Below, in pieces: positions 37 through 6,215 of a stretch of DNA of 8,065 nt. The notes below the pieces were generated by a model, which saw only the letters and a program-made list of their open reading frames with translations, was not told the origin of the DNA and searched no databases. How positions within the stretch are numbered: position 1 is the stretch's first letter; the number at the start of each line of letters is the position of its first letter. A program made the translations under genes and the position numbers. The DNA is from a bacterium (GTDB lineage: Bacteria > JAJVIF01 > JAGGVT01), in contig JAGGVT010000161.1 of NCBI GenBank assembly GCA_021157815.1, positions 1 to 8,065 on the forward strand, given 5' to 3'.

Positions 37-49
37 CTTCCTAAAACTT

Positions 50-193
50 ACTAACCTGCTAACTTACTAACCTACTAACCTACTAACCTACTAACCTGCT
101 AACTTACTAACCTGCTAACCTGCTAACCTGCTAACTTACTAACCTGCTAACCTGCTAACTTGCTAACCTGCTAACTTGCTAACCTGCTAACTT
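50..193. repeat. Tandem array of 18 octamers, consensus RCTAACYT
   Basis: Eighteen contiguous 8-bp units with no insertion, deletion or off-consensus base. Only unit positions 1 (A/G) and 7 (C/T) vary. Three of the four possible forms occur: ACTAACCT (7 copies), GCTAACTT (6) and GCTAACCT (5); ACTAACTT never does. The last five units alternate GCTAACTT and GCTAACCT, giving a 16-bp higher-order period that suggests recent slippage. The array begins 6 bases beyond the stop codon of the M48 peptidase gene and lies in the 3' flank of its transcript. Because 8 is not a multiple of 3 and each unit contains TAA, all forward frames are closed; TTAG on the other strand closes those frames too. It is therefore non-coding. 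Its function is unknown. Confidence 0.95.
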
Positions 194-4309: not shown

Positions 4310-6082
4310 ATGATACGCATTATCTCAATTCTAATTCTTCTGGCAGGATTACTTGTGTTTTTGGGATGCTCCGCAAATGGTGCATCGCCAGTGCTGCCAG
4401 CCGATGATAATTCATCGAACTCGCAGAACGGATCGCTTCTTGGCATCTACACCATGACGTTCGATATCGAAAACATGAGCGTGTCAGTGGCGCCGAATCG
4501 CGAATCAGGTGCGCATTTCAATGTTACATCATACCTTCCCGCACCGGGGATTCATCTGAATTCCTTTGACCCGGGCACAATGACAGCGGATGTTGACGTG
4601 ACCATCTCAAACACATTCGATCTGGATGGCCATGACCTTCGTCTCATTATTTTCACGGACGCAGTAGGGCATAAACTGGTAAATTTCGACAGCTGGACAG
4701 GCTTTTTCGATATCGCCGGCGGACTGCCAATCAACCCGTTTAAGGCGTATCGAACAAGTGACCCGAACAGAATGTTCCCGGGGAAATCGGATGATGTCCG
4801 GAATCTTCAGATTTATCTTCCCGGCGGAAATCCGAATGTAACGTTCGCGATTGAAGCGTCGTACCCATCAAACTGCGAGGAGCCGTACGAGATTAACAAT
4901 TTTAACCAGGGCGTGCTTTATGACACGGTCGGCGCAATCGCGAATGTAACTGTGGATATATATGACTGGCAATCCGATGTATTTGGTGCTTTTTTGTACT
5001 GCCCTGCATTGACAGGCGGACCGATTGCTGTCCTTACACAGGTAAACGCAACCGAATGGGAGTATAATTTTGCGAACACAACGGGAGCGGCTGAGGGAAA
5101 TTACACCGGCTACGTTTTCGCGGAATCCTCCGATGTAAGGCTCTACACAGAGGTTGTTATCGAGGTTACGCATCAGACATCCGGCGTTGACCCGGTAGGC
5201 GATCTGGTTGTGGTTGCGATAAACCGCGGTGATTCGGGAGTGGATGCCGAACAGATTTCTTCCGTCGATTTCGATTGGGAGGACTCAAACGGCGCAGTTG
5301 AGTACGCGTTCGAACGTGCGGATGGCTACACGGGAACCGGCTGGACAGTCGATGGCGTAACCAGACAAAGCGATTACAATTTCATCCCGACCGGATATGA
5401 TCTCGATGACGATATCCGATTCAGGGTTATCGCTCGCGCGGTTGCCGGCGGAGACCCGCTGACAGATGCAGACCCGTCCGAAGAGGTTTTCATTCTCTTC
5501 ATGAGCAACATGGGCGACATGGGCGGCAGTTATGAAAACAGCTGGACTTTCACCAGAAAAGATCCGACAGACGGAATCTATTTAACTCGATGGTATTGGA
5601 ATGTCGATGAGTGGGGCGAGTGCGGAATCGGATTCTACGGCAATAACAGCATCGCAAAGGATACAAACACATGGGCTATCGCGTACACTCAATACGAAGT
5701 TCCCGATCTCGACGGCATGAGCGAAGCCTGGTTTGACGGCTACATCTCACCCGGCGCTAATTGGGACCCCGCGACGCTCGGATTCTGCATGGGTACGATT
5801 TCCGAAACTCCAACACCCGGACAAACCTGCCCGGATTTCGAGCCGGCGACTGAAATCCTCGGGCCGCAATATTTCGCATACAATAATCCGAACTGCGGTG
5901 GAATCAACGACCAGTTTGGTGAGACCAATCAGGATGCATGGCGGCTTACACCGGACTTCGATCCAGTTCACGTATGGCGTCATGTGGGATATTATCTAAA
6001 TGACTTGCTTGATCCTGACAGGGATTATATCGCGCTCGGATATGCAAACGGCAACATACCGTTAACGCCGGGCACCACGTGA
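4310..6082 (+). CDS. Large secreted multidomain lipoprotein of unknown function, possibly cut short by a late TGA
   Basis: A 590-residue predicted lipoprotein. The signal peptide ends in a lipobox, VFLGC, with Cys20 as the lipidated residue, followed by a low-complexity Ser/Asn/Asp linker. Regions in order: a beta-rich module (about 40-190) ending PSNCEEPYEI; a second beta-sandwich-like module (about 200-290) with VTVDIYDWQSDV; a fibronectin-III-like module (about 294-397); and a C-terminal module (about 400-590) rich in Trp, Tyr, Gly and Asp. Six further cysteines (189, 231, 438, 493, 507, 529) could form disulfides. No catalytic motif was recognised; a structural or binding surface role is likely but unproven. 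It has its own promoter, a good ribosome binding site and a terminator, so it is monocistronic. The stop is odd: past TGA (6080-6082) the frame runs GRTTGVTDAWAFVVH to TAA at 6128-6130, which looks like a natural last beta strand. Confidence 0.85.
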   Translation: MIRIISILILLAGLLVFLGCSANGASPVLPADDNSSNSQNGSLLGIYTMTFDIENMSVSVAPNRESGAHFNVTSYLPAPGIHLNSFDPGTMTADVDVTISNTFDLDGHDLRLIIFTDAVGHKLVNFDSWTGFFDIAGGLPINPFKAYRTSDPNRMFPGKSDDVRNLQIYLPGGNPNVTFAIEASYPSNCEEPYEINNFNQGVLYDTVGAIANVTVDIYDWQSDVFGAFLYCPALTGGPIAVLTQVNATEWEYNFANTTGAAEGNYTGYVFAESSDVRLYTEVVIEVTHQTSGVDPVGDLVVVAINRGDSGVDAEQISSVDFDWEDSNGAVEYAFERADGYTGTGWTVDGVTRQSDYNFIPTGYDLDDDIRFRVIARAVAGGDPLTDADPSEEVFILFMSNMGDMGGSYENSWTFTRKDPTDGIYLTRWYWNVDEWGECGIGFYGNNSIAKDTNTWAIAYTQYEVPDLDGMSEAWFDGYISPGANWDPATLGFCMGTISETPTPGQTCPDFEPATEILGPQYFAYNNPNCGGINDQFGETNQDAWRLTPDFDPVHVWRHVGYYLNDLLDPDRDYIALGYANGNIPLTPGTT

Positions 6083-6130
6083 GGCCGTACAACCGGAGTA
6101 ACCGATGCCTGGGCGTTTGTGGTTCACTAA
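6083..6130 (+). other. In-frame coding-like extension after the lipoprotein TGA
   Basis: Fifteen codons reading GRTTGVTDAWAFVVH, then TAA. The hydrophobic, Trp-containing end resembles a closing strand of the preceding module (which ends RDYIALGYANGN...). TGA works as a normal stop elsewhere in the window, so a recoded genome is excluded. A nonsense change, a sequencing error or readthrough are the options. No clear bacterial SECIS hairpin was seen. Confidence 0.55.
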
Positions 6131-6145
6131 CACACCAGACATCAA

Positions 6146-6167
6146 GACCGGCAAGGCCTTGCCGGTC
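6146..6167. repeat. Perfect 22-bp palindrome
   Basis: GACCGGCAAGG is followed at once by its exact reverse complement, with no loop bases. It lies between the lipoprotein stop and its terminator. As RNA it would fold into a strong GC-rich hairpin. No T-run follows directly (GAAAGTATAG), so the real terminator is the next hairpin. It may be a dispersed palindromic repeat, a protein site or an mRNA 3'-end stabiliser. Confidence 0.85.
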
Positions 6168-6187: not shown

Positions 6188-6215
6188 AAGCCCCTGCGAT
6201 AGTCAGGGGCTTTTT
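6188..6215 (+). terminator. Rho-independent terminator of the lipoprotein gene
   Basis: AAGCCCCTG (6188-6196) pairs with CAGGGGCTT (6204-6212) around a 7-base loop, and the T-run TTTTT occupies 6211-6215. This is a textbook intrinsic terminator on the plus strand. It closes the lipoprotein transcript about 57 bases after the TAA at 6128 and separates it from the HD-GYP gene. Confidence 0.88.

Follow-up and report, generated by a model that had tools for sequence, protein, structure and literature searches.

The lipoprotein gene on an 8065-base bacterial contig probably ends prematurely, at a TGA in the loop that leads into the last strand of its C-terminal module, as judged from the ends of two paralogues. 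We favor, with moderate confidence, the explanation that an ordinary nonsense mutation created this TGA close to the end of a single paralogue in a large, decaying lipoprotein family. The window, i.e., the whole stretch of DNA that was analyzed, is the entire contig C166 of a 3.2-Mb metagenome-assembled genome (221 contigs, 90.9% completeness). The features that bear on the argument are the following:

4310..6082, plus strand: lipoprotein open reading frame as it stands, with an ATG start, 590 codons and the stop TGA.
5486..6127, plus strand: C-terminal module, counted through the 15 codons that follow the TGA; it is homologous to the C-terminal modules of the paralogues C27 and C150.
6080..6082, plus strand: in-frame TGA, probably premature (from reading of the frame and comparison with relatives).
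6083..6127, plus strand: tail GRTTGVTDAWAFVVH, 15 codons in the same frame behind the TGA; over its last ten residues it matches the strand that closes C27 and C150.
6128..6130, plus strand: TAA, probably the ancestral stop, at the same place as the C27 and C150 stops relative to the last strand.
About 6188..6212, both strands (T runs on either side): terminator-like hairpin CCCCTGCGATAGTCAGGGG, from the sequence and a consensus scan.

The encoded protein consists of a signal peptide with a lipobox cysteine, an N-terminal module (residues 5-290), an FN3-like domain, and the shortened C-terminal module of about 210 residues. An earlier note on this DNA had claimed that the frame runs past the TGA through 15 codons to a TAA, and that a terminator follows closely; the frame does read as listed above, and the terminator-like hairpin with its T runs lies 57 nt beyond the TAA and 105 nt beyond the TGA. 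The consensus scan flags this hairpin on the minus strand only, the plus-strand terminator being missed because the stem takes up two of the T. A perfect 20-bp palindrome, ACCGGCAAGGCCTTGCCGGT, lies between the TAA and the terminator (6148-6167), with no second copy found in the genome. A search of the window against Rfam gave no match above threshold.

Used alone as a query, the C-terminal module of the window had no real match in its own genome, its class, 385 genomes, viral contigs, plasmids, PDB or Pfam, and no orthologue was found in the 385 genomes or in the class. One match spanning the TGA (L066, E 0.009 for one genome, in the 385-genome search) was judged on inspection to be due to chance. 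Relatives emerged from inspection of the C-termini of paralogues: C27 ends in ...DSYIAIQFLHLDEPTGTTARIDEIAIVIY, resembling the window, in which ...RDYIALGYANGNIPLTPGTT is followed by the TGA and then by GRTTGVTDAWAFVVH. The pairwise alignment of the two modules scored 61 (shuffles: mean 37.3, sd 6.6), a value reached by 7 of 1000 shuffles, which supports their homology. With the C27 module as the query, a third member, C150, was found (40% identity to C27, E 3e-23), and the window module scored 7.6 bits against the profile built from C27 and C150, more than any of the 428 scored shuffles; no further convincing member emerged when four genomes were searched with a profile. Both relatives are distant, and both are located in the same genome as the window.

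The three modules end in RIDEIAIVIY (C27), GLDDFSIVIY (C150) and, behind the TGA, VTDAWAFVVH (window), the final strand of the two relatives being D-x-x-A/S-I-V-I-Y. In C27 and C150, the stop directly follows the counterpart of VTDAWAFVVH, exactly where the window frame meets its TAA, and therefore the TGA is probably premature. C27 has no stop at the position of the window TGA; C150 has a TGA elsewhere, in the middle of its last module. The matching ends and stops bear out the suggestion of the earlier note that the tail resembles the strand closing the C-terminal module; neither relative ends at the place of residue 590, which would have spoken against it. The proposed comparison of homologue ends was thus informative in that a strand matching that of the tail ends both relatives, whereas the residue replaced by the TGA is unreadable because the site lies in a loop of variable length. 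It should be noted that the multiple alignment of the three modules misplaces part of the module middle and is reliable at the ends only, and that AlphaFold2 models from the three sequences were unusable (pLDDT 29 and 32).

The N-terminal module (window 4310-5180) defines the family. The genome has 45 copies of it, amounting to 12,736 codons, and two genomes of the same class contain more divergent ones; neither Pfam nor NCBIfam has a name for it. Four lipoprotein copies are arranged in tandem on contig C118. A scan of a collection of genome contigs with the whole window protein gave one relative, which matches the N-module only. The C-terminal parts vary among copies; on our reading of the sequences, beta-propeller-like and FN3-like repeats are among them. 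The N-module contains in-frame stops in 4 of the 45 copies (two TAA, one TAG, one TGA), and one further copy is frameshifted, on C36, between two N-module parts; the earlier note had not anticipated stops elsewhere in the family. A TAA in C206 (L085) and a TAG in C104 (L087) fall on the same conserved Glu of the motif NCxEPY, which is GAA or GAG in 46 of 62 aligned copies, and several hundred open codons lie behind each of these two stops. The TGA, in another C104 copy, occupies a column dominated by Gly (Gly codons in 42 of 61), and a TAA in C195 is located directly behind the lipobox. In C176, the frame stays open for 555 codons behind a TAA and encodes repeat-like protein. In the relatives G001 and G003, 18 N-module copies were examined, all of them free of in-frame stops. 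A codon-score scan for interrupted genes also detected candidate cases outside the family (L056, L081, L082, L084).

The genome also carries an 8-bp tandem repeat, GTTAG[CT]A[AG], in arrays of 5 to 37 units, at window positions 48-191 (minus strand), at L084:4708 directly behind the C27 gene, and on many other contigs, some of the arrays being at contig ends. A survey of 1.12 Mb of this genome counted 50 arrays, of which all 49 that were tested lie outside long open frames; 0.8 Mb of G002 and 0.12 Mb of G001 and G003 contain no array.

Under the favored explanation, the ancestral stop would be the TAA at 6128-6130, and a nonsense change would have produced the TGA at 6080-6082 in the loop ahead of the last strand, cutting that strand off from the C-terminal module. 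The gene is one of approximately 45 paralogous lipoproteins that join one N-terminal module to a variety of C-terminal modules; single copies seem to be under relaxed selection, such that nonsense changes and frameshifts have built up in several paralogues. We infer that the organism itself carries the mutation, and that it either impairs the module by shortening it or is tolerated.

Alternatively, the TGA could be the true, old stop, with a non-coding tail that is open and strand-like by accident. Open frames of this kind are common: at least 15 open codons follow the stop in 82 of 216 long genes (38%) in 0.45 Mb of this genome, so that the openness of the tail is uninformative and its content is what counts. 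The codon score of the tail (0.127) equals the average for coding sequence (0.129), the average behind stops being -0.094, and is at the 85th percentile of post-stop tails; 12 of the 82 tails, counting that of the window, reach this score, several of them belonging to interrupted or adjacent genes. The local alignment to the C27 and C150 profile stops short of the tail because the preceding loop differs in length, and therefore an end-anchored test bears the argument. In this test, the end-to-end score of the tail against the C27 and C150 ends was 11. Of 330 post-stop tails, 1 did as well, as did 63 of 42,763 short open stretches and 0.1% of tail shuffles, although the similarity is short and the test was picked after it had been noticed. 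An old stop would also fit the a priori rarity of a nonsense change so near a gene end and the lack of the longer form in any orthologue; nevertheless, the resemblance of the tail to the final strand of both relatives, together with the agreement of the stop places (p ~0.001 to 0.003), makes this alternative unlikely, if still worth serious consideration. Another possibility is that the TGA was introduced by error into the assembled consensus, in which case the organism would have a sense codon there and make the full protein. The metagenomic origin of the assembly (221 contigs, 90.9% completeness) is compatible with such an error, and the N-module stops are consistent with single differences of the G-to-T or C-to-A type, as can also arise from oxidative damage (the numbers are small). 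However, errors would strike conserved genes as well. As a control, 1.12 Mb of the genome was compared by alignment with the proteins of G002, which belongs to the same class and comprises four contigs; in a first tblastn version of this control, many stops were antisense or preceded start codons, and these were filtered out of the final count. No credible internal stop was found in 56,591 codons of conserved homologues, versus four in the 12,736 N-module codons; the single candidate in the conserved genes lies upstream of the likely start of the query, and there were no in-frame stops in 35 ABC domains. If the rates were equal, the chance of all four stops falling in N-module codons would be (12,736/69,327)^4, or ~0.001. 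The interruption of N-modules in a genome with clean conserved genes thus argues against a uniform error and in favor of relaxed selection on the lipoprotein family, which is the better reading, although the TGA site alone could be in error; overall, we regard a consensus error as distinctly unlikely.

The remaining alternatives assume that the TGA is translated. The claim that a changed genetic code is excluded was borne out for practical purposes: TGA is a normal stop, ending 47 of 218 long ORFs (TAA 106, TAG 65), and we rejected the UGA-reassigned codes (tables 4 and 25) also in view of the tRNA-Trp, which has the anticodon CCA and an ordinary anticodon stem of 5 bp, speaking against the 4-bp-stem route of UGA reading covered by the survey in PMC13092985. 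A regulated or leaky stop, with readthrough yielding a minor long form that has the complete module, would accord with a tail that still looks coding, with the stops of two paralogues at one and the same conserved Glu, and with an in-frame TGA in two of the three copies of the C-terminal module. Against it, RNA structure behind the TGA is no better than in shuffles (folding z-scores 0.28, 1.10 and 0.99), TAA, TAG and TGA all occur as stops in the family and their places differ, the loop position is not conserved, with neither stop position nor context shared by C27 and C150, and no suppressor anticodon was present among the tRNAs read, which were part of all tRNA matches; a search of papers on bacterial readthrough with C-terminal extensions turned up no precedent for this lipoprotein family. 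Such a stop is accordingly very unlikely, and we give even less credence to a family-wide device in which low-level readthrough of in-frame stops gives long lipoprotein forms, the Glu stops of C206 and C104 and the TGAs in two of the three C-terminal modules being selected rather than products of decay. Selenocysteine was worth testing because the genome has a tRNA-Sec (G000:C190:13693-13783, L182:1497-1591; 65.5 bits versus the Rfam cut-off of 47, ARAGORN anticodon TCA), whereas none above this cut-off was present in three relatives of the class. However, folding revealed no stable SECIS-like hairpin behind the TGA, neither C27 nor C150 has a Cys at this place, and the site is a variable loop, not a redox site, which leaves selenocysteine with almost no credibility. 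Among the three explanations put forward in the earlier note, the nonsense change is thus the best supported, readthrough found no positive evidence, and a consensus error is conceivable, with the clean conserved genes arguing against it.

A premature stop by itself changes little. The present case shows that an in-frame stop near a gene end can be judged from the ends of paralogues combined with a genome-wide control, and it draws attention to an extended set of lipoproteins, from an obscure lineage, whose annotated gene ends are not to be trusted; the finding would gain importance only if proteomics showed readthrough of the stops. Among known systems, the window gene resembles the nonsense-truncated, pseudogene-like copies in expanded bacterial paralogue families, in which any of the three stops occurs with the frame open behind it, several copies are hit, and conserved genes are clean; in contrast to such copies, it loses only the last strand, so that its product may still be stable and anchored, and the gene need not be dead. 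It shares with bacterial selenoproteins the in-frame TGA and a genome with tRNA-Sec, but differs in that the site has no SECIS-like hairpin and the relatives have no Cys there. With programmed stop-codon readthrough, which generates C-terminal isoforms, it has in common an in-frame stop followed by a protein-like tail; unlike in that system, the stop lacks a conserved position, context or structure, and the same arrangement is seen in no orthologue.
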